DNA of 64,000 nucleotides from Isosphaeraceae bacterium EP7 (lineage in GTDB: Bacteria; Planctomycetota; Planctomycetia; Isosphaerales; Isosphaeraceae). Shown piece after piece: positions 11,272-40,074 of the stretch (position 1 is its first letter; each line of letters starts with the position of its first letter). A program made the position numbers and the translations under genes. A model generated the notes under the pieces. It worked only from the letters and a program-made list of their open reading frames with translations, was not told where the DNA came from and searched no databases. The stretch spans positions 2,367,174 to 2,431,173 of the forward strand of contig CP151667.1 in assembly GCA_038400315.1 (NCBI GenBank). Direction: 5' to 3'.

Positions 11272-11340
11272 CCGCTGACTCCTCTGAGACCTTCCGCGAC
11301 GGCCCGCCCGACTTCGATGTCGTGGCGAGCCCTGGGCTGC

Positions 11341-12546
11341 TCAATTCATCGCGATCCCGGCGGGCATCCATCGAGGCAGGGCCGACCGATCGCAGTGCAG
11401 ACCTGCCCCCACAATTTGAGCCTCGACATTCAACGCGAGTCGTTCGCAGACGTAGTCGATTTGCTCGTCGGTCATCTCGGTGAAGAAAGGCAGGGCCAGC
11501 GTGGACTGGGCGACCCGCTCGGTCACCGGGAAGTCTCCGGGCCGGTGGCCAAGCCGCTCGCGGTAGAGCGGTTGCAGGTGGATCGGCACGAAGTAAGGTC
11601 GAGTCGGGATGCCGTCCGCCTCGAGCGCCGCCATGAGTGCGGGCCTGTCGATCCCCTCTTCAAGCCTCACGACGTAGACGAACCAGCTCATCCGCGTGGT
11701 CTCGGGCGCGATGAATGGGATCTCGACCCCATCCTGCGAGGCGAGTCGCCTGTTGTATCGGGCGGCGACTCGTGCGCGGCGGTCGAGGATCTCGTCGAGC
11801 CGCCCTAGCTGCGTCAGGCCCATCGCCGCGCTCATCTCGTCGAGCCGGTAGTTGAAGCCCAGCCGCACGTGGTTCATCCAGGTCCCGTCGTCGTCGCGCC
11901 CCTGATTGGACAGGCTCCGCAGGACTCGCGCGAACGCGCGGTCGTCGGTGACGATCATGCCCCCCTCGCCGGCGGTGATTTGCTTGTTGGGATAGAAGGC
12001 GAAGACCGCCGCCCTAGCCTGGCTTCCCACACGCCGGCCGTTCCGCTCGGCACCGATCGCCTCGCACGCGTCCTGGATCAGCTCGAGGTCGTGCTCCTCG
12101 GCGATCGACCTCAGCTCTTCGATGGGGCAAGGCTGGCCGAAGACGTCGACGGCGACGATGGCCCGGGTCTTCGGGGTGATCAGGGCCTCGACATTGCTCG
12201 GGTCGATGTTCAGCGTCCGCGGGTCGATGTCGGCGAAGACCGGCCGCGCCCCCTGGTAAAGTGCGCAGTTGGCCGAGGCGATGAAGCTGAACGGGGTCGT
12301 GATCACCTCGTCGCCGGGGCCGATCCCAGCGGCGGCCAGGCAGAGGTGCAGCCCGCTCGTGCCGCTGTTGACGGCGACGCCCTCGGCAACTCCGGCGGAC
12401 TCCGCAGCCGCGCGTTCGAAGGCGCCAACCTGCGGCCCCAGGCTCAGTGTCCGTGTCCGCAGGACGGCGAGGACCGCTTCGATCTCGACTTCGGTGATCG
12501 AGGGCTGGGACAGTGGGACTCTCATCGATGCGCGGGCCTTGCTCAC
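11341..12546 (-). CDS. DegT/DnrJ/EryC1/StrS family PLP-dependent sugar aminotransferase
   Basis: 401 residues from a GTG at 12546, chosen because GGAGG lies seven bases upstream; an ATG at 12525 lacks such a site. The protein has NSGTSGLHLCL (PLP phosphate binding, about residue 60), Asp159 in LIQDACEAIGAE (pyridine nitrogen) and the Schiff-base lysine Lys188 in FYPNKQITAGEGG. It should transfer an amino group to a keto nucleotide-sugar, giving an amino-sugar donor. The CapD-type dehydratase at 20.4 kb could supply a keto substrate (inference). About 20 C-terminal residues after NVEAQIVG look extra compared with the family. Confidence 0.92.
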   Translation of the reverse strand: MSKARASMRVPLSQPSITEVEIEAVLAVLRTRTLSLGPQVGAFERAAAESAGVAEGVAVNSGTSGLHLCLAAAGIGPGDEVITTPFSFIASANCALYQGARPVFADIDPRTLNIDPSNVEALITPKTRAIVAVDVFGQPCPIEELRSIAEEHDLELIQDACEAIGAERNGRRVGSQARAAVFAFYPNKQITAGEGGMIVTDDRAFARVLRSLSNQGRDDDGTWMNHVRLGFNYRLDEMSAAMGLTQLGRLDEILDRRARVAARYNRRLASQDGVEIPFIAPETTRMSWFVYVVRLEEGIDRPALMAALEADGIPTRPYFVPIHLQPLYRERLGHRPGDFPVTERVAQSTLALPFFTEMTDEQIDYVCERLALNVEAQIVGAGLHCDRSALPRWMPAGIAMN

Positions 12547-24546: not shown

Positions 24547-26961
24547 CTATTTCAGATCGACGGTCACCTTGCCGATCTTGCCGGTGAACTTGTTGTCGCG
24601 TTCCTTGTAATCGTCGGTCACCGGTGTCTCGCCATCGAGGCCGACGTCCGCGCCTTCGTCGGCCGAGAAGATGTTGGCCTGCGTGCGGTCGATCCGCCCC
24701 TCGGCGACCTTCTCACCGTCGACGAAGATCGTGCCCTTGCCGCCCTTGCCCTGACCGCCGTCGTACACGAACTCGTAGCGGATCGTCACCTTGCCCTCGG
24801 GCAGCGGTTTGGGAGCAGCAACCTTATATGAACTGAGGCCGAGGAAGTTGTACGTGTAAGCCGGCTTGCCATCCTTGACGTACAAACTCCATCCGCCGAA
24901 TCGCCCGGCCTGGGACAGGATCACGCCGTTCACGCCACCTTTCGGAACCTGGACCTCGGCGGTGATGGTGTGCGACTTGTTCTTGGTGTTGATGAAGACG
25001 TTCTCCGTCATCCCGATCATGCCCTCGTAGACCGTGAGCGAGGTGCGGCCTGCCATCAGGTCGGGACGACCCGCGAGAGCGGCATTCGCACGCTCGATCA
25101 CGCGATCATCGAGCGGCAAGGCATGGTTTTTGGTGGCCTCCTTCAGGAAAAGCTCCTGCAATTCCTTGAGCTTCTCGGGATGCTTCGCGGCCACATCGTT
25201 CGCCGAGCTGAAGTCCTCGTCGACGTGGTACAGCTCCCACTTGTCTTCGAGGAATGGCCTCCGTGGTGTCATCTCCCAGGCGGCACGGTGAACGGTGTGG
25301 GCCAACCAGCCGTCGTGGTAGATGCCGCGGTTACCGAAGATCTCGAAGTACTGCGTCTTGTGCCGGTCCTTCGCCTTCGCGTCCGCGAACGAGTACAGCA
25401 TGCTCACGCCTTCGATGGGCGTCTGGGGCGTGGTGTTGACCACCGTGGGTTCGGGCAGGCCGGCCGCTTCGAGGATCGTCGGTGCGATGTCGATGACGTG
25501 ATGCCACTGCGAACGAATCTCGCCCTTGGCCGCGATCCCCTCGGGCCAGTGGATCACCATTCCGTTGCGAGTGCCGCCGTAGCTGCCGGCGACTTGCTTC
25601 GTCCAGGCGAACGGCGCGTCGCCGGCCACGGCCCAACCGGCGGCGTAGTGGCCGTAGGAGCTCGGGCCGCCCAGTTCGTCGAGATGCTTGAGGATCTCAG
25701 GCACCGTTTCCGGTACGCCGTTGAAGTACGTCATTTCATTGAAAAGCCCGTTCATGGTGCCTTCGCCGCTCGCGCCGTTGTCGCCGACGATGTAGAAGAC
25801 GAGCGTGTTGTCCAACTGACCGAGGTCGTCGATAGCCTGGATGACGCGGCCGACTTCGTAGTCGGCATATTCGCCGAACCCGGCGAAGACCTCCATCTGG
25901 CGGGCGAAGAGTCGCTTCTCGTCGACGCCGAGTTTGTCCCAATCCTTGATGGCATCGGGCTTGGGCGCGAGCTTCGTACCGGAGGGGACGACGCCGAGCT
26001 TGATCTGGCGGGAAAGCGTCTCTTCACGAAGCGTGTCCCAGCCCTGGTCGAATTTGCCCTTATACTTGGCGATCCACTCCTTCGGCACGTGATGCGGGGC
26101 GTGCGTTGCACCAGGCGCGAAGTAGGTGAAAAACGGCTTGTCAGGCGTCAGCGATTTCTGGAAGTTCGTCCACTTGATCGCCTGGTTGGCGAGGTCCGTC
26201 ATGAGGTGGTAGTTCGGGTCCTTCGGTACCTCGATGCGGGTCATGTCCTCGTAGATCGCCGGGGACCACTGGTTCGCCTCGCCGCCGATGAATCCGTAGA
26301 ACTTGTCGAAGCCGGCGCGGGTCGGCCACCGGTCGGTCGGGCCGGACGGGCTCACTTCCCAGGCGGCGGTCTCATGCGACTTGCCGAAGGCGGACGTGCT
26401 GTACCCATTGAGCCGCAACATCTCCGCCAGCGGTGCTACGCTGTTCGGGCGTTGCCCGGTCTGGCCTGGGAATGCGGTGGCAGTCTCGGTGATCGATCCC
26501 ATGTTACAGACGTGATGATTGCGTCCGGTCAGCAAGGCAGCGCGGCTCGGCGAGCAGAGTGCAGTGGTGTGGAACTGGTTGTATCTCAGGCCGCCCTTGG
26601 CCATTTTCTCTAGCGTCGGCATGTGGATCGGTCCGCCGAAGGCGCTGGACTGACCGAAGCCCATGTCGTCGATCAGCACGACAAGCACGTTCGGGGCCTT
26701 GGCAGGCGCCTTGACCTCAAACCGCGGCGGGGCCTTCGCGTTGCGGGCGTCGAGTTCGGTGATCGGCGGGAGCTTCGGCTCAAGAATCGGCAGGACCGTC
26801 CGGTCGAGTTTGAACGTCTGCTGGTCGTCGACCGAGGAGTTCGGACCCAAGTCCGCGGCCGTCGCGAGTCCGGGACCTGCCGTGCCGTTCACCGCCGCAT
26901 GGCCTAACGCCATGCATACGGCGAGAACTAAGATCGTCAGCCATGTCATGACTCTCTTCAC
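24547..26961 (-). CDS. Secreted arylsulfatase (sulfatase family, formylglycine type)
   Basis: 804 residues from a GTG with GAGGAG upstream. A signal peptide (TWLTILVLAVCMALGHAA) shows export. The catalytic domain starts with NVLVVLIDDMGFG, whose Asp98-Asp99 bind calcium. Cys136 in ALCSPSRAALLTGRN is the CxPxR site converted to formylglycine. GDNGASGEG supplies the distal metal ligands. The last 130 residues (GGWSLYVKDGKP, IFVDGEKVAEG) form a beta-rich, lectin-like domain seen in large arylsulfatases. It should remove sulfate esters from polysaccharides or aryl substrates outside the cytoplasm. No sulfatase-maturing enzyme is in the window. It is divergent from the cytochrome/DUF1553 gene and convergent with the TolC-like gene. 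Confidence 0.93.
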   Translation of the reverse strand: MKRVMTWLTILVLAVCMALGHAAVNGTAGPGLATAADLGPNSSVDDQQTFKLDRTVLPILEPKLPPITELDARNAKAPPRFEVKAPAKAPNVLVVLIDDMGFGQSSAFGGPIHMPTLEKMAKGGLRYNQFHTTALCSPSRAALLTGRNHHVCNMGSITETATAFPGQTGQRPNSVAPLAEMLRLNGYSTSAFGKSHETAAWEVSPSGPTDRWPTRAGFDKFYGFIGGEANQWSPAIYEDMTRIEVPKDPNYHLMTDLANQAIKWTNFQKSLTPDKPFFTYFAPGATHAPHHVPKEWIAKYKGKFDQGWDTLREETLSRQIKLGVVPSGTKLAPKPDAIKDWDKLGVDEKRLFARQMEVFAGFGEYADYEVGRVIQAIDDLGQLDNTLVFYIVGDNGASGEGTMNGLFNEMTYFNGVPETVPEILKHLDELGGPSSYGHYAAGWAVAGDAPFAWTKQVAGSYGGTRNGMVIHWPEGIAAKGEIRSQWHHVIDIAPTILEAAGLPEPTVVNTTPQTPIEGVSMLYSFADAKAKDRHKTQYFEIFGNRGIYHDGWLAHTVHRAAWEMTPRRPFLEDKWELYHVDEDFSSANDVAAKHPEKLKELQELFLKEATKNHALPLDDRVIERANAALAGRPDLMAGRTSLTVYEGMIGMTENVFINTKNKSHTITAEVQVPKGGVNGVILSQAGRFGGWSLYVKDGKPAYTYNFLGLSSYKVAAPKPLPEGKVTIRYEFVYDGGQGKGGKGTIFVDGEKVAEGRIDRTQANIFSADEGADVGLDGETPVTDDYKERDNKFTGKIGKVTVDLK

Positions 26962-27477
26962 GATGGAAACTCCTCGATGTCATCGGGTGAGAACTCAGAC
27001 ACTTCGCAGTCGGTCGCCGTCAGGCATGCGGGACGCGTGATCGTCAGTCCCGGGGGACGACTACGGACTTCCAGTCGGTCTTCTGTGCTCGGCTCACCAT
27101 GACCAGCCGTGCTCCCGCTCGGCTTACGCGATCCCGCGCCAGGCGTCGTCGTGTTCGACAAGTCGCTTCAGCGACCGCAGCTTACTGCTCCGGAAGTTGC
27201 ATCGCATGGTGGTAACGACCCGTTGTTGGCGTTTCCTACGGATAGGAACTGTGTGCAGGAGGTCTACAGGGCAGGACTTCGCCATTCTGAGGGGAGTAAG
27301 ACGACCAGGATTGCCGGCAAGGATTTACTCCCGCACGATCTCACGATGTGGCCGGCCTGTGAGTCGCTCCTGTCTCACGTCAGCCTCATGGAATGTGAAA
27401 CATTGATTTCATCGGACCGCTCGACGCGTTATGATGCTGTCGGGTCGGGAGCCGCAAGGGTTCTCTCGAGGCATTCG
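26962..27477. other. Divergent intergenic region, 516 bases
   Basis: This lies between the divergent sulfatase and cytochrome/DUF1553 genes and should contain both promoters. An open frame upstream of the cytochrome gene (from 27109) is in phase with it but lacks coding character before the signal peptide. TATGAT at 27430-27435 could be a -10 box, without a well-spaced -35. Confidence 0.4.
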
Positions 27478-30400
27478 ATGATTCGACGAACGCAACCCCG
27501 CAACATCCTGCGAGGCTGGACGCTGACGCTGATCCTCGCCCTTCCTGCGATGGGTGCGGGAGACGTCGCGGAACGCGACTTCTTCGAGGCGAGGGTCCGC
27601 CCTGTCCTCGTCAAGCATTGCTACGCGTGCCACTCGGCCGGGGCGTCGAAGGCCAAGGGTGGTCTGCGGCTCGACGACCGCCAGGCCACGCTCGCCGGTG
27701 GCCACTCGGGGCCCGCCCTTGATCCGGGCAAGCCCGACGAGAGCCTGATCATCCAGGCGATCGAGCAGGGGGGCGCTGTCGAGTCGATGCCGCCCAAGGG
27801 CAAACTGCCCGACACGGCAATTGCGGACCTCCGCAGGTGGGTCGAACGTGGCGCGTTCGATCCCCGCGAGCCGGCCACATCGCCGATTGTTGCCGCGGAG
27901 GCCGACCCCTGGGCGCTCAGGCCCGTCGTTCGGCCGATCGTCCCGACTCCCGAGGCCGATGGGCGACGCTGGGTGCGAGGTCCGATCGACGCATTCATCC
28001 TCGACCGCCTCGTTCGGGAAGGGCTGGCCCCCTCAACCGAGGCAAACCGACGGACACTAATCCGGCGCGTGACCTTCGACCTTCTCGGCTTGCCCCCCAC
28101 GCCCGGTGAAATCGATGCCTTCGTAGCCGACCAGTCCCCCGACGCCTACGAGCGTCTGGTCGACCGCCTGCTGGCCAGCCCGCACTACGGCGAGCGCTGG
28201 GCCCGTCGGTGGATGGATCTGGCTCACTATGCCGAGACCCACGGCCACGATCAGGACCGGGTCCGGCCCAACGCCTGGCCGTATCGCGACTATCTCATCA
28301 ACGCATTCAACGTCGACAAGCCATACGCTCGATTCGTGCGCGAGCAGGTGGCCGCCGACGCCCTCTATCCCGACGAGCCGGGGCTGGCCGTGGCGATGGG
28401 CTTCCTGGCGGCCGGGCCCTGGGACGAAAGCTCGCTGCGCGACATCCGCGAGGACAGCATCGACCGCCAGGCGGGTTATTACCTCGACCGCGACGACATG
28501 GTGGCCACGGTGATGTCCACCTTCGTCAGCAGCACCGTGCACTGCGCACGCTGTCATGATCATAAGTTCGATCCCATCAGCCAGTCAGAATACTACGGGC
28601 TCCAGGCCGTCTTCGCCGGTGTGGGACGGGCCGACCGAGCCTACGATGCCGACCCCAACCTAGCCAAACTGCGTCGCGACCTGACGGCACGGCGAAAGGC
28701 ACTGACGAACAAGGAACCCGGCCTGATGGCGTCGCTGCTGGACGACACGACGCAGGCCGATGTCGCCTCTTGGGCTGCCACGCGGAAGGGGCCGCTCGTC
28801 CCCTGGACGGTGCTGAACCCCTCGGAGATGAAGGCCGAGGGAGGGACGACCCTGACACTCCAGCCCGACCGATCGATCCTGGCCGAAGGGCCTCAGCCGT
28901 CCGAGGGCACCTACACGATTATTGCCACAACAGACCTGCCGGGTATCACCGCGGCGAGGCTTGAGTTGCTGCCCGACGACCGCCTGCCCAGCAAGGGCCC
29001 GGGGCGAGCCGGCAACGGTAACCTGCATCTGACCGAACTGGTTGTCTCGCACTCATCGACCTCGGCCCCCGATCGTTGGCGGCCAGTGAAGATCGCCGGA
29101 TCGATGGCCGACTACGACCAGCCCGGTTGGGGGATCGCCGGTGCCATCGACGGCGACCCGAAGACGGCCTGGGGCATCTATCCCGAGGTCGGCAAGCCGC
29201 ACGAGGGGGTCTTCGAATTCGGCGAGAACATCGGGGCCTCGTCGCTCCAGTTCGTGCTCCGACAGACCTTCCCGGCCGGCCACCCGATCGGACGATTCCG
29301 GATCTCGATCACGAACGCCCTGCGTCCGGTCCGCACGGGCTCGCCTCCGGGGCCGCTCGCCGTCCTCCTAGACATCCCGGCCGAGCATCGGACGACCGAC
29401 CAGAAGCGAGAGCTTGCGGCGATCTACCTGGCCGAGACCCTGGACCGTCAGATTGCCGCGTTGCCGCCGCAGCAGCTCGTCTATTCGGGCACGAGCGACT
29501 TCGCCCCCGACGGCAGCCACAAACCGACCTCCACCCCGAGGCCCGTCTTCATCCTCAATCGAGGCGAGATCCGTCAGCCTGGGGCGGCGGCCGTGCCGGG
29601 TGCCCTCGGCTGCGTTGCTGGCCTCGTCTCGCGGTTCGACCGACCAAGCGAGGCCGAACGACGCGCCGAGCTAGCCCGATGGCTGGCCGATCCGGGCAAC
29701 CCGCTTACCTGGAGGTCGATCGTCAACAGGGCCTGGCAGGCTCACTTCGGCCGCGGGCTGGTCGACACGCCCAACGACTTCGGGCGGATGGGCAGCAAGC
29801 CGTCCCATCCCGAATTGCTCGACTGGCTTGCCTGGACGTTTCGCGAGGGCGGGGGCTCGCTGAAGTCGCTCGACCGGATCATCGTCACGTCGGCCTCCTA
29901 TCGCCAGAGGTCGGACCACAACCAAACCGGGGCGAAGGTCGACGCTGACAACCGTCTGCTCTGGCGGATGAACGTGGCCAGGCTCGACGCCGAGTCGATC
30001 CGCGACGCGATGCTGGCCGCCTCGGGACGGCTCGATTCGATGATGGGCGGCCCTTCGGTTCAGCACTTCGCGATGGGCAAGGGGGTGCACGTCACGCCCA
30101 CGGTCGACTACACGGCGTATGACTGGGACTCGCCCGGCGCTGGCAGGCGGAGCGTCTACCGATTTCTGTTCCGGACGCTGCCCGACCCGTTCATGGAAGT
30201 CTTCGACGCCGCGGATTCGTCGCAGTTGACCGCCACGCGAAACGCTTCGGTCACGGCGCTCCAGGCCCTTGCACTCCTGAACGACCCGTTTGTGATCCGC
30301 CAGGCCGAGCATTTCGCAGAGCGGCTGGCGGGGCTCGCACCAGACGACGCAGGCCGGGTTCGCGAAGGGTACCGGCTCGCCGTCGGTCGTGAGCCCGAAC

Positions 30401-30501
30401 TGGCCGAGGTCCGCGAGTGGGTCGAGTACGGCCGGAGGCATGGCCTGGCGAACTTCTGCCGGATGCTCCTCAACAGCAGTGAATTCCTGTTCATCCCGTG
30501 A
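27478..30501 (+). CDS. Planctomycete cytochrome C / DUF1549 / DUF1553 protein (PSD1 type) with an inserted binding-like domain
   Basis: I start at the ATG at 27478 (GAGG upstream), giving 1007 residues that begin with a signal peptide (TLTLILALPAMGAGD). A PSCyt1 haem-c-like motif CYACH is at residues 48-52, followed by the DUF1549 domain (PIDAFILDRLVREGL, RVTFDLLGLPPTPGEIDAFV, ASPHYGERWARRWMD). A second CARCHDHKFDP sits near residue 355. A region of about 200 residues is inserted (around GAIDGDPKTAWGIYP) that resembles an F5/8-type-C sugar-binding fold. DUF1553 ends the protein (SKPSHPELLDWLAWTFREGG). These planctomycete proteins are secreted; their reaction is not established. It overlaps the DUF1501 gene by four bases (GTGA), the standard pairing. 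Confidence 0.9.
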   Translation: MIRRTQPRNILRGWTLTLILALPAMGAGDVAERDFFEARVRPVLVKHCYACHSAGASKAKGGLRLDDRQATLAGGHSGPALDPGKPDESLIIQAIEQGGAVESMPPKGKLPDTAIADLRRWVERGAFDPREPATSPIVAAEADPWALRPVVRPIVPTPEADGRRWVRGPIDAFILDRLVREGLAPSTEANRRTLIRRVTFDLLGLPPTPGEIDAFVADQSPDAYERLVDRLLASPHYGERWARRWMDLAHYAETHGHDQDRVRPNAWPYRDYLINAFNVDKPYARFVREQVAADALYPDEPGLAVAMGFLAAGPWDESSLRDIREDSIDRQAGYYLDRDDMVATVMSTFVSSTVHCARCHDHKFDPISQSEYYGLQAVFAGVGRADRAYDADPNLAKLRRDLTARRKALTNKEPGLMASLLDDTTQADVASWAATRKGPLVPWTVLNPSEMKAEGGTTLTLQPDRSILAEGPQPSEGTYTIIATTDLPGITAARLELLPDDRLPSKGPGRAGNGNLHLTELVVSHSSTSAPDRWRPVKIAGSMADYDQPGWGIAGAIDGDPKTAWGIYPEVGKPHEGVFEFGENIGASSLQFVLRQTFPAGHPIGRFRISITNALRPVRTGSPPGPLAVLLDIPAEHRTTDQKRELAAIYLAETLDRQIAALPPQQLVYSGTSDFAPDGSHKPTSTPRPVFILNRGEIRQPGAAAVPGALGCVAGLVSRFDRPSEAERRAELARWLADPGNPLTWRSIVNRAWQAHFGRGLVDTPNDFGRMGSKPSHPELLDWLAWTFREGGGSLKSLDRIIVTSASYRQRSDHNQTGAKVDADNRLLWRMNVARLDAESIRDAMLAASGRLDSMMGGPSVQHFAMGKGVHVTPTVDYTAYDWDSPGAGRRSVYRFLFRTLPDPFMEVFDAADSSQLTATRNASVTALQALALLNDPFVIRQAEHFAERLAGLAPDDAGRVREGYRLAVGREPELAEVREWVEYGRRHGLANFCRMLLNSSEFLFIP

Positions 30502-31973
30502 CGATCGATCGGGAACTTCACCGGATGCAGACCGAGGGCTGGGACATGCACGGGCGGATTTCGCGACGCGAGATGCTCTGGGGCTTGGGGGGTGGCCTTG
30601 GCGGCATTGCGCTGGCCGAGATGCTCGGCCGCGGCCGGGCGCTGGCGGGAACGGACGAGGTCCCGCTCGGGCTCAACGGCGGCCTGCATCATCCGGCGAA
30701 AGCCAGGCGAATGGTGCAGATTTTCCTCAATGGCGGCGTCAGCCAGATGGACACCTTCGATCGCAAGCCGGAACTGGACCGCCTGCACGGTCAGGCGTTC
30801 GATCCCGGCGAGCATGTCGAAGGGGTCACCAGCGTTCCCGGGCAAGTGATGAAGTCGCCGTTTGCATTCCGACAGCACGGCGAGTCAGGCCGCTGGGTGA
30901 GCGACGTCTTCCCGCACCTGGCGACCCGCGTGGACGACCTGGCATTCCTGATGGCGGTGACCTCGAAGACCAACGTCCACGGCCCGGCCAGCTACCTGAT
31001 GAATACGGGGTTTCTCACCCCGGGATTCCCCTGCATGGGGGCCTGGGTCTCGTACGGACTGGGTGCGTTGGGCGACAATTTACCGACGTTCGTCGTGCTG
31101 CCCGACCCTAAGGGCCTGCCCTACAACGCCAAGGGCAACTTCTCGGCGGGATTTCTGCCGATGGCCCACCAGGGGACCCCGATCAACGCGGCCGCCCCCG
31201 ACCCGATTCCCGACCTCTTCCCCCCGAAATCGGCGAAATCGCTGACGGCCGAGTCCGAGCGAGAAGGACTGATGCGACTGGCGGCGATGAACGGTCGGCA
31301 CGCGGCAAACCATCCGGGCGACTCGCGGCTCGAGTCGCGAATTGCCTCCTACGAGTTGGCCGCCCGGATGCAGCTGAGCGCCCCCGAGGCGCTGGACCTG
31401 GCCGGCGAGACCAAGTTGACTAGGCGACTCTACGGGATGGACGAACCCGAGACGGCCGACTTCGGCCGCCGCTGCCTGCTGGCCCGGCGTCTGCTAGAAC
31501 GGGGTGTCCGGTTCGTGCAGGTCTGGAGCGGCGCGGGCGGTCCCAAGGACAACTGGGACAACCACAGCGATATCCCCAAGGAGCTGCCGGCCATCGCTCG
31601 CAGCGTCGATCGGCCGACCGCCGGGTTGCTCGCCGACCTGAAAGCTCGCGGCCTGCTCGATGACACGCTGGTCGTCTGGTCCACCGAGTTCGGACGGATG
31701 CCGTTCACCCAGGGGGCCACAGGGCGCGACCATAACGGCGGCACCTCCGTCGCCTGGCTGGCAGGGGCTGGTGTGAAAGCGGGGGTGGCCCATGGCGAGA
31801 GCGATCTCTGGTCATGGCGGGCTGCCGCAGGTGCGACGTCAGGGTACGACCTGCACGCGACCATCCTCCATCTCCTCGGGATCGACCACGAACGACTGGT
31901 CGTCCGCCACGACGGGATCGATCGCCGGCTCACCGACGTCCACGGCAGGTTGATCCCGGAAATCCTGGCCTAA
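30498..31973 (+). CDS. DUF1501 protein with Tat signal
   Basis: 491 residues from a GTG overlapping the upstream stop (GTGA); ATGs at 30525 and 30546 are alternatives. RISRREMLWGLGGGLGGIAL (residues 20-39) is a twin-arginine signal, so the protein is exported folded. The DUF1501 body has MVQIFLNGGVSQMDTFDRKP near the start, GMDEPETADFGRRCLLARRL and VWSTEFGRMPFTQG; the family is distantly related to sulfatases and alkaline phosphatases. The DUF1501 partner always lies beside a DUF1549/DUF1553 gene in planctomycetes and is thought to act with it at the cell envelope, but no activity is established. Confidence 0.9.
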   Translation: MTIDRELHRMQTEGWDMHGRISRREMLWGLGGGLGGIALAEMLGRGRALAGTDEVPLGLNGGLHHPAKARRMVQIFLNGGVSQMDTFDRKPELDRLHGQAFDPGEHVEGVTSVPGQVMKSPFAFRQHGESGRWVSDVFPHLATRVDDLAFLMAVTSKTNVHGPASYLMNTGFLTPGFPCMGAWVSYGLGALGDNLPTFVVLPDPKGLPYNAKGNFSAGFLPMAHQGTPINAAAPDPIPDLFPPKSAKSLTAESEREGLMRLAAMNGRHAANHPGDSRLESRIASYELAARMQLSAPEALDLAGETKLTRRLYGMDEPETADFGRRCLLARRLLERGVRFVQVWSGAGGPKDNWDNHSDIPKELPAIARSVDRPTAGLLADLKARGLLDDTLVVWSTEFGRMPFTQGATGRDHNGGTSVAWLAGAGVKAGVAHGESDLWSWRAAAGATSGYDLHATILHLLGIDHERLVVRHDGIDRRLTDVHGRLIPEILA

Positions 31974-32119: not shown

Positions 32120-33715
32120 ATGCCCGAAAACGTGCCACGCCCCAAGACGTGCTTGCCCGATTGGGACGTTGCGGAGCTTCCCGAACCGCATCCATTGAGT
32201 TGGCGGAACTGGACGCGGTTTATCGGTCCGGGCGTCGTGATGATGGGCATTCAGATCGGTGGCGGCGAGTGGCTGCTCGGCCCGGAGGTCACCGCCAAGT
32301 ACGGCGGCGGACTGATGTGGATCGCCACGATCGCCATCATCCTTCAAGTTTTCTACAATATCGAATGCGGCCGATACTCTCTTTACTGCGGCGAGCCCGT
32401 CTTCACAGGCTTTCTCCGCACCCGACCGGGCCCTCGATTCTGGATGGGGTTCATCCTCTTCCTGAACCTCAGCGCCCTGATCCCCGGCCTCTCGACCCAT
32501 GGCGCCGCGATGGCGGCGTCACTCTGGCTGGACCGACCGCCGACGCAGGCGGACAGCAAGCTCGTCACGGGCCTGGCCTACGTGTTCCTCCTGGCCGTCG
32601 CGCTGCCGGTCCTGGTCGGGGGAAAGGTCTATAACATGCTCCAGGCGATCATGATGGCGAAGGTCGCCGTGGTTCTGGGGTTCTGTCTGATCGTGGGCGT
32701 GCTCTTCGTCAGCCCTGAGAACTGGTGGAATGTGTTCAGCGGCTTCGCGAAGTTCGGCACGGTCCCCACCGTCGTCGATGGCCGCGAGACGACCGTCAAC
32801 CTCGTCAGTCACTGGGCGAACGGGGAGGAGTGGCCCCTGATCGCGCTTGGGAACATCGCCGTACTCGGGGCGTTCGCGGGCTACGCAGGTGGGGGGGGTC
32901 TTTCGAACGCCACATACGGCAACTTCGTGCGAGATAAGGGCTGGGGGATGGGCAGTGTCGTCGGGGCCATCCCCAGCGCCATCGGCGGACGCCACGTGAC
33001 GCTTAGCCACATCGGCAAGGTGTTCGTCATCGACGCCGAGAACCTGCGGCGATGGAAGGTCTGGTGGCGGTACGTCCTGATCGATCAAATCTATGTCTGG
33101 GCCCCTGGCTGCTTCATGGGAATGGCCCTTCCTGCGCTACTCTCTCTCGAGTTCGCGCCGAATTCCCCGCTCGTGGGCGCGAAGCTCGATTGGGCGCAAT
33201 CGCTCATCACGGCCGATGGCATCCGGCATTCCCCACACTTCCTGGCGACGACGGCGAAGTCGATGTGGATCGCAACGGTGTTGGTCGGGATGATGGTGAT
33301 GCTGCCCAGTCAGATGTCGATCGTCGACGACTTCAGCCGCCGCTGGACCGACATGATCTGGTCCGGCAACCGCCGGGTCCGCGAGTCGCTGGTAGGCCAT
33401 CAGGCAGGGCGGATTTACTACTCGATCCTGTGCACCTACGTGATCTGGACGGTGGTCGCGGCCTACGTGTTCAGCACCTACGGCACACCCAAGCTGATGA
33501 CCCTGGTGATTGCCAACCTCAACAATCTGGCGATCGGCTTGACCGCCTTCCATCTGCTATGGATCAACGTCACGCTATTACCCACCGAGCTAAGGCCGCG
33601 GTGGTATCAGCGAGCGGGACTCGCGGCGTGCGGGGTCTTCTATCTGTCGATGGCGGCGTTGGTATTCGTGACGAAACAATGGCCGATAATCCAGCAAATG
33701 CTAGGACGCTCGTGA
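32120..33715 (+). CDS. Nramp-like transporter lacking the canonical metal-site motifs
   Basis: The frame opens at 31985, but the protein most likely starts at the ATG at 32120 (MPENVPRPKT), giving 531 residues; an ATG at 32090 is possible. Eleven or so membrane helices are predicted. RFIGPGVVMMGIQIGGGEW matches Nramp helix 1, but the metal-binding Asp-Pro-Gly-Asn of true Nramp proteins is replaced by IGGGEW. The helix 6 region (LGAFAGYAGGGGLSNATYG) lacks Met-Pro-His. MMVMLPSQMSIVDDFSRRW is a conserved later loop. It belongs to the broader APC/Nramp fold but may not carry divalent metals. It follows the DUF1501 gene by about 150 bases, possibly co-transcribed. Confidence 0.8.
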   Translation: MPENVPRPKTCLPDWDVAELPEPHPLSWRNWTRFIGPGVVMMGIQIGGGEWLLGPEVTAKYGGGLMWIATIAIILQVFYNIECGRYSLYCGEPVFTGFLRTRPGPRFWMGFILFLNLSALIPGLSTHGAAMAASLWLDRPPTQADSKLVTGLAYVFLLAVALPVLVGGKVYNMLQAIMMAKVAVVLGFCLIVGVLFVSPENWWNVFSGFAKFGTVPTVVDGRETTVNLVSHWANGEEWPLIALGNIAVLGAFAGYAGGGGLSNATYGNFVRDKGWGMGSVVGAIPSAIGGRHVTLSHIGKVFVIDAENLRRWKVWWRYVLIDQIYVWAPGCFMGMALPALLSLEFAPNSPLVGAKLDWAQSLITADGIRHSPHFLATTAKSMWIATVLVGMMVMLPSQMSIVDDFSRRWTDMIWSGNRRVRESLVGHQAGRIYYSILCTYVIWTVVAAYVFSTYGTPKLMTLVIANLNNLAIGLTAFHLLWINVTLLPTELRPRWYQRAGLAACGVFYLSMAALVFVTKQWPIIQQMLGRS

Positions 33716-33953: not shown

Positions 33954-34736
33954 CTAGAATTCCCGGGCATAGCCCGCCGTCCAGCCGCCGTCGACCGTGA
34001 GGATATGACCGTTCATGTAGCTATTCTCGGGATCGGCCAGGAAGAGGGCCGCGACGGCGATCTCGCGGGCCTCGGCCGGGCGGCCGAGCGGGATGTGCGC
34101 CAGCATCCTCTGAACCGAATCGCGGAAGAGGCCGTCCTCGCCATAGAAGAGCTGACGAGTACCGTCGGTGAGCGTCGAGCCCGGCGCGATCCCGTTCACT
34201 AGGATGCCGTGCGGGCCGAGTTCCAGCGCCATCGCCTTCGTCAAGTTGATGACGCCCGCCTTCGCGGCCACAAATGCGCATTGCAGACGCAGCGGCACCA
34301 GGCCGGCGATCGAGGCGATATTGATGATCCGGCCCGACCCCTGCGCCTTCATCGCTTGCGCGGCGAACCGGCTGACTTCGAACAGACCGGTCAGGTCGAC
34401 CGAGAGAATCCGGTCCCACTCCGATCGCGGGAATTCATCGATGTTGACCCGGTGGGCCATCGTGTTGATGCCCGCGTTGTTGACCAGGATATCGAGCCGC
34501 CCGTGTGTCTCCACGACGCGACGCATGACGTCTTCGACCTGGTCGGTCCTGGTCACATCGAGCGGCATCGACGAGGCACCCGGGGTCCTCGCGGCGGCCT
34601 GGCGTGCGCCTGCCTCGTCCACGTCGGTGTAGACGACTCGGCTGCCGTTGGCGGCCAACGCATCGGCGATTGACTGGCCGATGCCGCGTGCGGCACCCGT
34701 CACCAGGCTGACTTTCTCGGAGAGATCGCAGCGCAT
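33954..34736 (-). CDS. Short-chain dehydrogenase/reductase with Phe in place of the catalytic Tyr
   Basis: 260 residues; GAGGAGG seven bases upstream fixes the ATG. The cofactor motif TGAARGIG is at residues 13-20 and NNAG at 86-89. Asp38 after the second strand suggests NAD preference. The catalytic serine is Ser142 and the lysine Lys159, but the residue 13 after the serine and four before the lysine is Phe155 (codon TTT, 34272-34274) where Tyr is expected. The rest of the fold is intact, including the GGWTAGYAREF C-terminus. The protein may bind its ligand without normal catalysis or use another acid. It ends an operon with 2-oxoacid dehydrogenase genes, 13 bases after the E2 gene. Confidence 0.9.
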   Translation of the reverse strand: MRCDLSEKVSLVTGAARGIGQSIADALAANGSRVVYTDVDEAGARQAAARTPGASSMPLDVTRTDQVEDVMRRVVETHGRLDILVNNAGINTMAHRVNIDEFPRSEWDRILSVDLTGLFEVSRFAAQAMKAQGSGRIINIASIAGLVPLRLQCAFVAAKAGVINLTKAMALELGPHGILVNGIAPGSTLTDGTRQLFYGEDGLFRDSVQRMLAHIPLGRPAEAREIAVAALFLADPENSYMNGHILTVDGGWTAGYAREF

Positions 34737-34748
34737 CGTCGGGCCTCC

Positions 34749-35942
34749 TCAGGCGATCAGCCAAGGGCCTGGATTCTCAACCATCAGGGACAGATCCTGG
34801 AGGAATCGCGCCGCCGGCCCGCCGTCGACGATCCGATGGTCGAACGTGAGGCTCAGCGTCATCCGCTCGCGAGAGACGATCTGTTCGCCGATGGTGACGG
34901 GCTGACGCGCGATCCGACCGAGCCCCAGGATGGCGCACTCGGGCGAGTTGATGATCGGAGTGAACGCCTCGATGCCGAATGCACCGAGGTTGGTGATTGT
35001 GAACGTCCCACCCCTCATGTCGGCGGCGGGCAGGTGCCCCTCGCGTGCCTGGCCGATGAGTGCGAGCGACCGTTCGGCGATCTGCCGCAACCCGAGTTCT
35101 CCCGCTCCCCGGACCACCGGGACCAGCAGGCCGGCCTCGGTGTCGACGGCGAAGCCGACGTGGGCTTCGTTGCTCAGCTCGATCCGATCGTCGGCCCATC
35201 GCGCGTTGAGCATGGGATGATCGGCCAGCGCCAGGGCGGTCAATTTGATGAAGAAGTCGGTGAAGCTCGGCACCGGAGCCTTTGGAGACCGGGCGTCGCG
35301 GAACTGGAGTCGAAGGCTCACGAGATTCGTCGCGTCGATCGTGGTCATGAGCGTCACGGGGGCCGTCGTCCGGCGGCTCTCCACCATCCGCGCCGCGATG
35401 GTTCGCCGGATGGGGCTGACGGCAACTGATGGGACAGGGGCAACTTCAGCACGCGACGAGAGATCGCGGGCTGCCTCCAGCACGTCCACCTTGCGGATTC
35501 GACCGCCGCTACCGCTCCCTGCGAGACGAACCCAATCGATCCCCAGCTCTCGCGCGATTCGGCGTGCGAGCGGGGTCGAGCGGACCCGCCCCCGGCCGTT
35601 CGCGCGGACGACGACGAGCACCTCCGGTTCCGCCGACTTGAATGCCTCAACGGTGCGAACCGGCCGCGACGCCGGAGAGGCGGCGGGCGCGGCTTCGCCG
35701 GGCGTCAGGAGGTAGCCGAGGATCGCGCCGACGAGGACCTTGTCGCCCACGGCCGGTGCGTCGGGCGGGATGTTCAGGGTGCCGGGGTCGATCGACTCGA
35801 CATCCTGGGTGGATTTGTCGCCTTCGAGGCTGAACAGGGGCTCGCCCTCGCGGACGGGGTCACCGTCTCGCTTGAGCCAGCCGGCGAAGACGCCTTCTTC
35901 CATGTTCCAGCCGAGGCGGGGGACGGTGATGGCGGTCGGCAT
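34749..35942 (-). CDS. 2-oxoacid dehydrogenase E2, dihydrolipoamide acyltransferase
   Basis: 397 residues. An N-terminal lipoyl domain has the lipoylated lysine Lys43 in EGDKSTQDVES. A proline/alanine-rich linker leads to a peripheral subunit-binding domain (RSTPLARRIARELGIDWVRL, then GSGSGGRIRKVDVL). The catalytic acyltransferase domain ends with DHRIVDGGPAARFLQDL, where His369 and Asp373 form the active site. It transfers an acyl group from lipoamide to CoA in the multienzyme complex. The gene starts nine bases after the fused E1 gene. Only one lipoyl domain is present, as in acetoin and branched-chain complexes. No E3 gene is in the window. Confidence 0.92.
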   Translation of the reverse strand: MPTAITVPRLGWNMEEGVFAGWLKRDGDPVREGEPLFSLEGDKSTQDVESIDPGTLNIPPDAPAVGDKVLVGAILGYLLTPGEAAPAASPASRPVRTVEAFKSAEPEVLVVVRANGRGRVRSTPLARRIARELGIDWVRLAGSGSGGRIRKVDVLEAARDLSSRAEVAPVPSVAVSPIRRTIAARMVESRRTTAPVTLMTTIDATNLVSLRLQFRDARSPKAPVPSFTDFFIKLTALALADHPMLNARWADDRIELSNEAHVGFAVDTEAGLLVPVVRGAGELGLRQIAERSLALIGQAREGHLPAADMRGGTFTITNLGAFGIEAFTPIINSPECAILGLGRIARQPVTIGEQIVSRERMTLSLTFDHRIVDGGPAARFLQDLSLMVENPGPWLIA

Positions 35943-35951
35943 GGGAGCGGT

Positions 35952-37970
35952 TCACTCGCGGATGAGGTCCCGGATGGCCGCGGCGATCGTGCCCGGATTC
36001 GGCACGACGCTCGCTTCCAGGGTCGGACTGTAGGGGATCGGCGTGTGGGCCCCGTTGAGACGGCGGATCGGCGCGTCGAGGTCGTCAAATCCGGCGTCCG
36101 CCATCCGTGCGGCGATCTCCGCGCCGATGCCGAACGGCGCGAATGCCTCGTCCACAATCAGAAGACGGCCGGTCTTCCGCACCGAGTCGTGGATCGTCTC
36201 GAAGTCGAGCGGGGCGACCGTACGAGGGTCGATCAGCTCGACGGAGATCCCCTCGGCGGCGAGGACCTCGCAGGCCTTCAACGTGTGATGGACCATGAGA
36301 GCCAGGGCCACGACGGTGACGTCGGCCCCCTCGCGGACGACGGCGGCCTTGCCGAACTCGATCTCGTAAGGCTCCTCGGGCACCGGCCCCTTGATCGCGA
36401 TGACCTCGCGATGTTCCAGGAAGAGCACCGGATCGTCGCAACGCAGGGCCCGGGCCAGCAGACCCTTCGCATCGTAGGCCGATGACGGGACGACCACCCG
36501 AAGGCCCGGGAAATGGGCATACATCGGGTAATAGTTGCCCGAATGATGGGTCGCTGCCGAGTGGCCGACGCCGACGCATCCCCTCAGCAAGACCGGCATG
36601 GTCAGCCGACCGCTGCTCATGTACTGGACTTTGGCGATCTGGTTGAGGATCTCGCCGACGGCGTCGAGGACGAAGTCGGCGAACATGAAGTCGATCACCG
36701 GTCGCGTGCCGGTCATGGCCGCCCCGGTGGCCAGACCGACGAATCCGCGTTCACAAATCGGCGTGTCGCAGAGCCGCGCCGGGCCATATTTGCTGAACAG
36801 CCCCACCGTCGTGGCGAAGTTGCCCCCGCGTGCCCCGATCCCCTCGCCCATGACGAAGATCGACGGGTCCCGCTCCATCGCGTCGGCCAAGGCCTCCAAC
36901 GTCGACTTCATGGAGGGGATCTCACGGACACCCGGCGGCGGGGGGCCGTTGCGGACCGGAGATGCCGGATCGTCGGCTTTCGGGGCCGCGTAGATATGAT
37001 CCGTGGCGGTCGAGCCGTCGGGATAGGTGCCAGCCTCGGCGAACTGGATCGCGTCGGCGGCCACCTCCTCAACCTCGTCGTCCATCGCCTGCAGTTCGGC
37101 CTCGGTCGCGAACTTTTCCAGGAGGAGTTTCTCGCGGAGCCTGCGGATGGGGCATCTTCCTTTCCAGCCCTCCACATCCTCGCGGGTCCGATAGGTGTAG
37201 TCCCCCATGCCCTCGGCGTGGGCCCGGGTGCGGTAGGTCTTGCACTCGATCAGGGTGGCGCCTCCGCCCGAGCGGGCCCGCTCGACGGCTTCGCGGGCGG
37301 CCTCGGTGACGGCCAGGACGTCATTTCCGTCGACCTCGATACCGGGCAACCCATAGGCGCTCGCCCGTCCCGCGACCGAAGGGTTGCCGCTGGAGTAGGA
37401 GAACGGGACCTCGGTGGCGAACTGGTTGTTCTCGCAGATGAAGAGCGCGGGCAGCTTCCAGATTGAGGCCATGTTGAGGCCCTCATGGAAGGCCCCGTTG
37501 TTCACGGCGCCATCGCCGAAAAAGGCAACCGACACTCGCCCCGTTTCCATGAGCTTGGAGCTGTACGCCGATCCGGCCGCCTGGAGGATGCACGGGCCGA
37601 CGATGCCACTTGTGCCCATCATGCCAACCTCGGGGGCGAAGAGGTGCATGCTGCCGCCTCGCCCGCGTGAACAGCCTTCCCGCCGGCCGAACAGCTCCGC
37701 CGCCAGTTCCCTGGGGGTCACGCCCTTGGCCAGGGCATGGCCATGCCCTCGGTGGGTGCTGAAGACGGTATCCGCGGCGTCGAGGTTGGCGCAAACGCCG
37801 GTGGCGATCGCCTCCTGGCCGACGTAGGTGTGGCAGGCTCCGTGGACCAGCCCCTTCTGATGAGCTCGCGCGAGATGCTCCTCGCACCTGCGAATCGTCT
37901 GCATCGTACGATAGAGCGACAGCAGGCCTTGGAGCGTCATGCTCTCGCCTTGAATCAGGGTTTCGGCCAC
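35952..37970 (-). CDS. 2-oxoacid dehydrogenase E1, alpha and beta subunits fused
   Basis: 672 residues from a GTG with AGGTGG upstream; the second start is an ATG at 37940. The alpha part (about 1-335) has the thiamine diphosphate motif GDGAVNNGAFHEGLNMASIW beginning at 152, with the second Asn pair at 181-182. After a proline-rich junction (PPPPGVREIP) the beta part follows, with EALADAMERDPSIFVMGEG, GCVGVGHSAATHHSGNYYP and LIVDEAFAPFGIGAEIAAR. It decarboxylates a 2-oxo acid or acetoin and loads lipoamide on E2. Fused E1 chains are known in planctomycetes and Bacteroidetes. The pyruvate, acetoin or branched-chain specificity cannot be decided from sequence alone. Confidence 0.92.
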   Translation of the reverse strand: MAETLIQGESMTLQGLLSLYRTMQTIRRCEEHLARAHQKGLVHGACHTYVGQEAIATGVCANLDAADTVFSTHRGHGHALAKGVTPRELAAELFGRREGCSRGRGGSMHLFAPEVGMMGTSGIVGPCILQAAGSAYSSKLMETGRVSVAFFGDGAVNNGAFHEGLNMASIWKLPALFICENNQFATEVPFSYSSGNPSVAGRASAYGLPGIEVDGNDVLAVTEAAREAVERARSGGGATLIECKTYRTRAHAEGMGDYTYRTREDVEGWKGRCPIRRLREKLLLEKFATEAELQAMDDEVEEVAADAIQFAEAGTYPDGSTATDHIYAAPKADDPASPVRNGPPPPGVREIPSMKSTLEALADAMERDPSIFVMGEGIGARGGNFATTVGLFSKYGPARLCDTPICERGFVGLATGAAMTGTRPVIDFMFADFVLDAVGEILNQIAKVQYMSSGRLTMPVLLRGCVGVGHSAATHHSGNYYPMYAHFPGLRVVVPSSAYDAKGLLARALRCDDPVLFLEHREVIAIKGPVPEEPYEIEFGKAAVVREGADVTVVALALMVHHTLKACEVLAAEGISVELIDPRTVAPLDFETIHDSVRKTGRLLIVDEAFAPFGIGAEIAARMADAGFDDLDAPIRRLNGAHTPIPYSPTLEASVVPNPGTIAAAIRDLIRE

Positions 37971-38556: not shown

Positions 38557-39978
38557 TCACTCCTTCTTCGGTGCAAGTTGCGTCGCCATCTCCACCAGCG
38601 CGTCGAGCATCGTCTCGGAGGCTTGCGGCTCGAGATAATTGGTACCAGGCCAGGTCTCGTAGCCACCTAGCGCGAAGTGCCGCGGCGTGGGCAGGTAGCC
38701 GATGTAGCCGTGGTTGAGCTCGACCATGAACGAGTGGGCGATGGGACTCCTGCGTTTGAATGCCAGGCCGGTCTCGGTGAACGTTTCGCAAGGCGTCGTG
38801 CCGATGGCGATGTCGCCGATCCGCAAGACCTGAAGCGGCACGGCCGCGGTGTCGGCGGCCGCCGCGAGACTCTGGACGCGTGATGCGTAGCTCGCCGTGA
38901 CGATGTCCGGCGAGTCGCCCCTGGCCTCAGTCGCCTTCGCCCATGCGAGCAACTCGGCGTCGATCTTGCGATATCCGATCTGCGGCTCCCGGTAGAGAGC
39001 CTGCAACTCCGCCACGTCCTTCCACTCTGCCTTGGTTAAGGCATCGCTGACCCTGCGGGCAACGTCCTCGGCCACATGCCGCATCTGCCCGTAAGCGGGC
39101 TTTGCCGGGCGAGGGTGGCGGAAGTCGATGTTGTTGACGTCGCCGCTGGTGCCGTTGGCCATCATCGCGACGTAGGGCGGATCGCCTTCCGTCCCACCCT
39201 GGAGTTTCGCCAGCGCCTTGCAAAACATGCCGTAGTAATCGGCCGAGATGTGCCCGTCTCCCACCCCGCCGACGTAGTGCAGCGAGTAAGCACAAAAGGT
39301 GGAAATCGGCTTCCCGGACGGCTCGCGCAGGCCGATGATCGAGACCGTCGGGTCAGTGGGTCCTGCGGGTTCGGTCAGGTCGGGGCTGCCCGACGGTGGG
39401 TTCATCCTGACCTTGTCCACCTTGCCGAAGGGATTCTTCGGCATCGTACCTTCCTTCATGAACCAGCGGCGGTTGAAGAGGTGCTCGGGGGCTTCCGCCG
39501 TCACGAAGGCGATCTGGGCGGGCCTTGCCAGGTTGAGCGCCCGCCTCACGCCGTCGGCCACGCGTCTGGCCACGAACCGCTGATAATCGTCGAGCGGCTG
39601 TTCGGAGGTGTAGGCACCCTTGCCCAGCGCGCTCGTGGCGGAGTGGGTGTGTGTCGCCGAGATCAGCACTCGTTCGGGCGGGATGCCCGTTTCTTCCTGG
39701 ATGAGCCGCCGGGCCTCGACGCTGACGCTGCGGTGGAGACCGAGCAGGTCGCAGACGACGAGCGCGAGCTTCGTCTTGCCGTCGTCGAACACCAGGCAGC
39801 GAGCATGCAGTTCGTCGTGGACGTGCGTGGCGGGAAATCCCTTGAAGCCGCCGATGATCTCCAGGCCTAATTCCGGGGTGATGTTGCTCGTCGCCGCGCC
39901 GGCCCGGAGCGTTGGCTCGGCCGCGAAGACTGGGGCACACGCCAGGAGGGGTAGTAAGAAGGTAAGTAGCGTCTTCAT
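38557..39978 (-). CDS. Secreted neutral/alkaline ceramidase-like protein
   Basis: I start at the ATG at 39978, where a signal peptide begins (MKTLLTFLLPLLACAPVFA) with GGAG nine bases upstream, giving 473 residues; the longer frame to 40020 adds 14 unneeded residues. LRAGAATSNITPELGLEI is the conserved N-terminus of the neutral ceramidase superfamily. ISATHTHSATSALG holds the zinc-ligand histidines, and VAMMANGTSGDVNNIDF is the family's 'NG..GD' segment. SLHYVGG supplies a further histidine. The C-terminal domain of true ceramidases is missing or short, so an amidase or lipid substrate other than ceramide is possible. It is a single gene without an obvious operon. Confidence 0.82.
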   Translation of the reverse strand: MKTLLTFLLPLLACAPVFAAEPTLRAGAATSNITPELGLEIIGGFKGFPATHVHDELHARCLVFDDGKTKLALVVCDLLGLHRSVSVEARRLIQEETGIPPERVLISATHTHSATSALGKGAYTSEQPLDDYQRFVARRVADGVRRALNLARPAQIAFVTAEAPEHLFNRRWFMKEGTMPKNPFGKVDKVRMNPPSGSPDLTEPAGPTDPTVSIIGLREPSGKPISTFCAYSLHYVGGVGDGHISADYYGMFCKALAKLQGGTEGDPPYVAMMANGTSGDVNNIDFRHPRPAKPAYGQMRHVAEDVARRVSDALTKAEWKDVAELQALYREPQIGYRKIDAELLAWAKATEARGDSPDIVTASYASRVQSLAAAADTAAVPLQVLRIGDIAIGTTPCETFTETGLAFKRRSPIAHSFMVELNHGYIGYLPTPRHFALGGYETWPGTNYLEPQASETMLDALVEMATQLAPKKE

Positions 39979-40074
39979 GGTCCGGCACTCCGTGGGCAGC
40001 CGTCGGACGTGTCGCCTCATTGCGGGCGGGGCGGGATCCGGGCCGAGGGGGGCGACTGAGTCGATGGTGGGGGG

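Follow-up and report, generated by a model that had tools for sequence, protein, structure and literature searches.

Several proteins have been described which share the fold of the Nramp metal importers and differ from them in the substrate site. According to the accessible part of a 2026 preprint (PMC12873925), the Nramp-related proteins possess neither the DPGN motif of helix 1 nor the MPH motif of helix 6, retain the Nramp fold, and are paraphyletic outside the canonical Nramps. Apart from the NRMT-like group and G-motif 3, the groups are described in that part as entirely uncharacterized. EleNRMT transports Mg2+ although it lacks the canonical motif (accessible part of PMC12873925). Slc11 outgroups with a divergent site were also reported by Cellier (accessible parts of PMC9606685 and PMC10606218). 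C. glutamicum needs PxpT, a protein with NRAMP-family members as its closest TCDB matches, for growth on 5-oxoproline (excerpt of PMC13274462), and the PxpT homologue YcsG (MntG) was reported as an Mn importer (excerpt of PMC10448178). MumT of Acinetobacter baumannii is encoded by a divergent NRAMP-family gene in a urea carboxylase/allophanate hydrolase operon and raises cellular Mn (excerpt of PMC5050338). In the excerpt of PMC12445098, Nramp appears only as a mouse genotype, and the paper is irrelevant here. Hence, there is dispute over what Nramp-related proteins transport (Mn2+ or 5-oxoproline for YcsG/PxpT, Mg2+ for EleNRMT); for the majority of groups, no substrate is known. Among the top-ranked matches in the open-licence literature, we found no paper in which sugar acids or Planctomycetota are connected with an Nramp-related protein.

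Here, we analyzed a window, i.e., a contiguous stretch of 64,000 nucleotides from the genome of Isosphaeraceae bacterium EP7, which encodes the following protein of this class:

32120..33715, plus strand: Nramp-related transporter P0001, assigned by NCBIfam NF037982 and a fold match to DraNramp 6d91

The reading frame encodes 531 amino acids from an ATG at 32120, which lies 146 bases past the end of a DUF1501 gene. These data agree with the initial annotation, as do the Nramp-type opening RFIGPG in the translation and the about eleven membrane helices read from the helix list of the model. A scan near the gene gave one promoter-like site (1.0 expected) and five terminator-like sites (2.5 expected), which is close to chance. 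P0001 passes the NCBIfam model NF037982 (Nramp_1, “Nramp family divalent metal transporter”) with 142.9 bits at a curated cut-off of 50. As the same model also passes the MntH and a second Nramp-related protein of the same genome, it does not separate substrates. With Pfam, no family was found for P0001 at E values up to 10, PF01566 included, the gathering score of which was not reached. Likewise, no PDB sequence was matched by phmmer with P0001 at E values of up to 10. With a profile built from 15 Nramp-related proteins, four PDB sequences were reached at E up to 0.01, namely EleNRMT, BfraNramp, human NRAMP2, and NRAMP1.

P0001 has the Nramp-type LeuT fold. An AlphaFold2 model was built on 77 alignment rows (mean pLDDT 84.2, pTM 0.88; pLDDT near 50–58 in the stretch after helix 6, about residues 281–300). 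The nearest solved structures are Nramps, with DraNramp 6d91 at Z 29.5 (rmsd 2.9, 393 aligned) and human NRAMP1 9f6q at Z 28.5 (rmsd 3.1, 414 aligned). The YcsG model 9a52_A gave Z 27.7 (rmsd 3.2, 389 aligned) and EleNRMT 7qia Z 26.6 (rmsd 3.5, 386 aligned). After the Nramps, LeuT-fold carriers follow at Z 21–24, among them the amino-acid transporters AdiC, SLC7A10, and BasC, mixed with KimA and cation-chloride cotransporters.

The second-best group of fold matches speaks for another possibility, namely that P0001 carries an amino acid, a cyclic amino acid, or an amine, as its LeuT-fold relatives do. PxpT with its 5-oxoproline is a precedent (excerpt of PMC13274462). As far as the excerpts go, PxpT, YcsG, and PxpG resemble P0001 in that they are Nramp-family proteins encoded with catabolic enzymes; PxpT was compared by description. 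In contrast to these systems, P0001 has no 5-oxoprolinase genes alongside, and its pathway consists of E1/E2, FAH, SDR, and hydroxyacid dehydrogenases. The genome has a single LamB_YcsF match, at C1:4216482 and thus at a distance of 1.8 Mb, and the stretch read around this match contains no Nramp-related gene. Of 98 genomes of the phylum, 10 have pxpA-family genes (PF03746); nine stretches around such genes were read, and none contained an Nramp-related gene. For this reason, YcsG was compared with P0001 by fold only. As, in addition, no amino-acid catabolic family was recognized among the recurrent neighbours of the transporter gene, we regard an amino acid or amine as an improbable substrate.

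The two motifs which distinguish P0001 from the canonical Nramps are:

32258..32272, plus strand: helix-1 motif G47-G48-G49-E50-W51, replacing DPGNW (ungapped profile alignment and column counts)
32888..32908, plus strand: helix-6 motif G257-G258-G259-G260-L261-S262-N263, with L-S-N replacing Met-Pro-His (profile alignment)

Helix 1: Seven canonical Nramps, the MntH of the same genome among them, were aligned with 77 ortholog rows. The stretch F-I-G-P-G...G47-G48-G49-E50-W51 pairs with F-L-G-P-A...D-P-G-N-W without a gap. In hhalign, the match of the 77-row alignment to the canonical Nramps is weak as a whole and covers helices 1–2 only, at a probability of 3% and E 0.015, but the stretch is anchored by GP and W.

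Helix 6: Owing to this limited coverage, the mapping of helix 6 rests on the wider profile A3. Its alignment with the canonical Nramps extends over 388 columns (probability 97%), and MPH is paired there with L261-S262-N263. Gaps near helix 6 in A3 mean that L-S-N could shift by at least one residue relative to M-P-H. The absence of MPH is independent of this, as Met-Pro-His occurs nowhere in the P0001 translation.

Helix 3: The position of the proton-path glutamate (E134 of DraNramp) is occupied by A130 in the profile alignment, inside a gapped stretch.

Conservation: All 77 ortholog rows agree at G48, G49, E50, W51, G257–G260, N263, and Y266, so that the motifs are not accidental; as the loci were retrieved by the peptide patterns VMMGIQI or DKGWGMG, conservation beside helix 1 is favoured. 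G49, E50, G257, and G259 are also identical in all 15 rows of a wider Nramp-related set. Alignment A2 leaves out four of 80 loci, i.e., L121 (partial) and L086, L118, and L125, which have one in-frame stop each within the tblastn match of the transporter; the match may run past the true end, or the stop may be a sequencing error.

The initial annotation had noted GGGEW at the place of DPGN and the lack of MPH in helix 6, and both observations hold in the alignments. It had also named metal ligands at shifted positions as a finding that would speak against its reading. For the most part, no such ligands were seen, as the Asp and Met-Pro-His are gone. Glu50, however, stands at the position of the Asn, and by alignment a carboxylate has moved from the Asp to the Asn position of the helix-1 motif. 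As Glu50 is invariant, one possible cation or proton ligand remains. EleNRMT, the Nramp-related Mg2+ transporter, also has the Nramp fold without the canonical site. At the position of DPGN it reads N-D-A-G-G and thus keeps the Asp, whereas P0001 reads G-G-G-E with Gly47 in its place (one NRMT sequence compared). A decayed or recently mutated Nramp was considered and discarded because the ortholog clade is deep and well supported, the motifs are identical in all 77 rows, and a canonical MntH is also present.

Three proteins of the genome pass NF037982, i.e., P0001, the canonical MntH (L001, G000:C1:2874950), which carries both DPGN and MPH, and a second Nramp-related protein (L002) with IVGTGEL in helix 1. 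The MntH (1327–3300 of its locus) has about 657 amino acids, with a C-terminal extension which by eye resembles a universal-stress-protein domain. In a maximum-likelihood tree of 59 proteins, P0001 falls into a supported ortholog clade (100/99) beside other GGGEW/GAGEW proteins (98/98 and 100/100). The next set (99/93) is made up of proteins with GSGE in helix 1, from Planctomycetota, Rubrobacter, and haloarchaea, together with rows from Aureimonas and Nonomuraea, in which G-x-G-E was not found in helix 1. The canonical Nramps lie across a 100/100 branch, beside GPGS and GAGD types. Among the best 80 of 283 relatives, the orthologs have 56–81% identity (best segment) and are mainly from Planctomycetota; a few come from assemblies that carry the label Verrucomicrobia or Bryobacterales. 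L150 is the ortholog of the isolate Aquisphaera insulae JC669. Hence, P0001 shares with the canonical Nramp/MntH proteins (DraNramp, BfraNramp, and its own MntH) the fold and the GPG-type start of helix 1, but it has no metal ligands and no PF01566 match and is separated from them by 100/100 branches. P0001 corresponds to the Nramp-related class as delimited in the accessible part of PMC12873925 (an Nramp fold in which helices 1 and 6 lack the substrate motifs), together with the “G-motif” and other groups named there. It is a member of a deep branch of this already described, mostly uncharacterized class, and the absence of DPGN and MPH is in itself an already described trait.

Upstream of the transporter gene, the window contains two neighbours:

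27109..30501, plus strand: PSCyt1/PSCyt2/PSD1 protein, a neighbour only (Pfam)
30498..31973, plus strand: DUF1501 protein, a neighbour only and not a conserved partner (Pfam DUF1501)

The label “cytochrome/DUF1501 pair” of the initial annotation was correct for these genes, and a sulfatase gene (24547–26961, minus strand) lies upstream of the pair. The annotation had further suggested that the transporter imports a product of the PSCyt/PSD1–DUF1501 system, and in the window the DUF1501 gene is indeed adjacent and on the same strand. Among the best 80 of 283 relatives, DUF1501 and PSD1 were each found in 18 of 80 loci, anywhere in flanks of up to 10 kb. Planctomycete genomes carry many such pairs, so some proximity to the transporter gene is expected by chance. 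We surveyed the adjacency. Among 53 orthologous loci in which each flank is visible for 3 kb or more, a DUF1501 gene was directly upstream in none, and DUF1501 or PSD1 was within 3 kb in five; detection was by tblastn with the window’s own proteins at 60 bits or more, by which very divergent copies could be missed. The adjacency is thus not conserved, and the recurrent partners are on the other side (33954–37970). This largely refutes the suggested uptake of a cytochrome/DUF1501 product, which we now consider very improbable. The more general claim of a different substrate is supported, as the metal site is replaced, the clade is separate, and the neighbours are catabolic.

On the other side, three genes adjoin the transporter gene:

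33954..34736, minus strand: SDR-family dehydrogenase, likely partner, third gene of E1-E2-SDR (Pfam adh_short_C2)
34749..35942, minus strand: lipoyl E2 acyltransferase of a 2-oxoacid-dehydrogenase-type complex, likely partner (Pfam Biotin_lipoyl, E3_binding, 2-oxoacid_dh)
35952..37970, minus strand: fused E1 alpha/beta, thiamine-diphosphate dehydrogenase P0002, likely partner (Pfam E1_dh, Transket_pyr, Transketolase_C)

In the window, E1-E2-SDR is convergent to the transporter gene, and there is hence no shared transcript there. The same order adjoins the transporter gene in L080 (80% identity) and L151 (71%). In the first stretches around 12 close orthologs, the transporter reading frame was picked in 11 (not in L045), and E1 and E2 were present in nine of the 11. 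The neighbourhood survey was extended to 80 loci, the best 80 of 283 relatives, many of which are trimmed by contig ends. It gave SDR in 61, E1 in 50, E2 in 45, a cyclase in 37, 2HADH in 33, and Ldh2 in 24 loci, followed by FAH (18), FGGY (15), and GntR (15). A DapA-family gene recurs in 5/80 and an NAD-epimerase gene in 6/80 loci, and these lie inside the operon in the representatives L145 and L139. Where 5 kb or more are visible downstream, E1 was found in 39/56 loci, E2 in 38/56, and SDR in 45/56, and where 7 kb or more are visible upstream, at least one of cyclase, 2HADH, Ldh2, FAH, and FGGY was found in 29/48. The fullest operon is that of L046, with a divergent GntR/FCD regulator followed by 2-hydroxyacid dehydrogenase, Ldh_2, FAH hydrolase, FGGY kinase, cyclase, transporter, SDR, E1, and E2. 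Its FAH hydrolase reaches 210 bits against the model of 2,4-didehydro-3-deoxy-L-rhamnonate hydrolase (cut-off 500). The cyclase (L046, 10757–12466, and other loci) has about 570–600 amino acids with two matched PF04199 stretches, and as its N-terminus is hydrophobic in some rows (by eye), it may be exported.

In relatives, the neighbourhood is an operon for sugar-acid-like or 2-oxo/2-hydroxy acids, and the substrate of the pathway is presumably such an acid. In the P0001 clade, the transporter is genetically linked to this pathway, a feature for which the accessible part of PMC12873925 has no mention. Of 34 gene families which recur in at least five of the 80 neighbourhoods, only the transporter has a median of at least three hydrophobic segments and is therefore the only candidate importer seen to recur. 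The linkage is not universal. E1 was absent within 6 kb in 17/56 loci, and no partner gene other than SDR was found in 16/80 loci; seven partner-less loci (L084, L093, L096, L097, L103, L130, and L158) have about 20 kb in view.

Next to gene order, we compared the occurrence of transporter and E1. Among 59 genomes, the own genome included, the transporter was present in 13 and E1 (at least 61% identity) in 17. E1 occurred in 13 of 13 genomes with the transporter versus 4 of 46 without it (Fisher p 6e-10, which is indicative as the genomes are related). A wider draw comprised 392 genomes, eight with the transporter (at least 59%) and seven with E1 (at least 69%), six of which were shared; this E1 search scored three candidates per genome and missed at least one E1. 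Hence, G327 came without a reported E1, which is visible on the same contig (L108). G411 had the transporter without a reported E1. The reverse case is G267, where E1, 2HADH, and Ldh2 are present with no transporter in the 16 kb read.

Two loci with E1 point to a replacement of the transporter, and they are the basis for this conclusion. In G029, an MFS permease lies between SDR and E1. Its best model is TIGR00893, the D-galactonate transporter, with 253 bits, which is below the cut-off of 395. G029 has no P0001 ortholog and carries a canonical MntH (DPGN/MPH) and a GTGE-type protein. In one of the two loci of G004, two ABC permeases are in one gene run with E1-E2-SDR-2HADH; they match MalF/MalG/Glc/Ugp sugar permeases, all below cut-off, and one further protein of the run weakly matches beta-L-arabinopyranosidase. 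The second G004 locus and G018 have an E1 ortholog with no transporter in view, and in G015 (E1 without transporter), the locus ends at the contig end. G029, G004, G018, and G015 are the four of the 59 genomes with E1 alone. Of 257 plasmid records with E1-like genes, three were read, all alphaproteobacterial; there, the more distant relatives of E1 (about 46%) are beside sugar PTS or ABC transporters.

Distant relatives of the transporter itself were found by tblastn in 11 plasmid records, seven of them from Haloarcula, and the contexts were taken from six of the 11. In Rubrobacter indicoceani (L269, NZ_CP031116.1, 147975–165366), two Nramp-family genes lie amid cyclases, an SDR, a UxaA-family hydrolase, and a FadR/GntR regulator; LutB-type lactate oxidation genes, a four-carbon acid sugar kinase, PdxA, and a lactate racemase-domain gene are in the same region. 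The relatives in Haloarcula sinaiiensis and Halobellus limi are near an L-lactate permease and an FAD/Fe-S protein. In Haloarcula pelagica, an FAD/Fe-S protein, the 2,4-diketo-3-deoxy-L-rhamnonate hydrolase rhcF, and an SDR are downstream, a branched-chain amino-acid-type ABC system is upstream, and E2 is further off. For the Aureimonas relative, isocitrate lyase is nearby and the context is otherwise uninformative; the surroundings of the Nonomuraea relative are unannotated.

The main competing explanation is that P0001 imports a divalent cation through another kind of site and thereby supplies the enzymes of the operon; the cation would be Mg2+, as with EleNRMT, or Mn2+, the metal claimed for MntG/YcsG and MumT. 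The E1 (thiamine diphosphate/Mg), FAH, and cyclase families use Mg, Mn, or Zn. The name given to P0001 by NF037982 fits this explanation, as does the invariant site carboxylate Glu50. EleNRMT shows that Mg2+ can be moved without the canonical motif, and the genes of MumT and YcsG share operons with catabolic enzymes, both proteins raising the Mn content of the cell (excerpts of PMC12873925, PMC5050338, and PMC10448178). MumT, likened here by description, resembles P0001 as a divergent NRAMP-family gene with a catabolic operon and differs from it as a reported Mn importer (excerpt of PMC5050338). Against a cation stands the loss of Asp, Met, and His from the site. Moreover, a catabolic operon needs an importer for its substrate, a role that none of the other recurrent neighbour families seems fit to fill. 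In two operon copies without the transporter, permeases of the organic-anion MFS type or the sugar ABC type are present instead, and these would not provide metal. On balance, we regard cation import as rather unlikely, though less so than an amino-acid substrate.

P0001 probably imports a small carboxylate instead. With the metal-binding residues gone and an organic-acid operon in many relatives, an organic acid is a likelier import than a metal. This reading is based on the change of DPGNW to GGGEW and of MPH to LSN in a genome that keeps a canonical MntH with both motifs, on the catabolic nature of the recurrent neighbours with the transporter as their sole recurrent candidate importer, on the co-occurrence with E1 and the replacement by other permeases in G029 and G004, and on the contexts of the distant Rubrobacter, Haloarcula, and Halobellus relatives together with the PxpT precedent. 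The loci without E1 or without partners, the opposite orientation of E1-E2-SDR in the window, the transporter genome without a reported E1 in the wider draw, the E1 loci with no transporter in view, the Mn reports for YcsG and MumT, the Aureimonas and Nonomuraea relatives, and the ABC system of H. pelagica argue against it.

As a mechanism, P0001 would be a LeuT-fold secondary importer of the Nramp-related class which, in a rocking-bundle cycle, brings a small organic acid across the cytoplasmic membrane. The cargo is most likely a sugar-acid-derived 2-hydroxy or 2-oxo carboxylate. After import, the acid would enter the co-occurring pathway, with oxidation by SDR, Ldh_2, or 2-hydroxyacid dehydrogenase, cleavage by FAH or DapA-type enzymes, and oxidative decarboxylation by E1/E2 as putative steps in no fixed order. 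In amino-acid/APC transporters, the G-S-G loop holds the carboxylate via backbone amides. Similarly, the glycine-rich unwound parts of helices 1 and 6 of P0001 plausibly expose backbone amides which hold the carboxylate, and Glu50 or Asn263 may read substrate hydroxyls or couple a proton.

Within the top-ranked open-licence matches, the link of the clade to an acid-catabolic operon and the transporter swap are new as far as our search shows. As the operon is recurrent and unrelated to metals, and at least one natural transporter swap exists, the substrate question is directly testable in the P0001 clade. If P0001 carries an acid, members of the class are wrongly labelled metal importers in routine annotation, and a fold for organic solutes would seem to have acquired metal transport late. 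More tentatively, the G-x-G-E Nramp-related clades as a whole might be carboxylate carriers, with metal import derived in the canonical branch. Many bacterial and archaeal genes named by NF037982 would then be organic-acid permeases, in which the helix-1 glycine loop holds the carboxylate and the helix-1 Glu couples a proton or reads hydroxyls. We consider this extension possible, with the odds against it.

The two Nramp-family genes of Rubrobacter indicoceani belong to different clades and lie in one four-carbon-acid/lactate catabolic region, which makes the region a good system for separating the substrates of the two clades. In L130, two different Nramp-related genes (8007–9797 and 9974–11563) are in tandem, followed by a convergent gene which by eye is sodium/solute-symporter-like. 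Near the cluster of the window, a neutral-ceramidase-like protein is encoded at 38557–40020 on the minus strand (Pfam Ceramidase_alk, 34.6 bits), and a member of its blastp cluster (L054, 10958–12379) adjoins a different Nramp-related gene.
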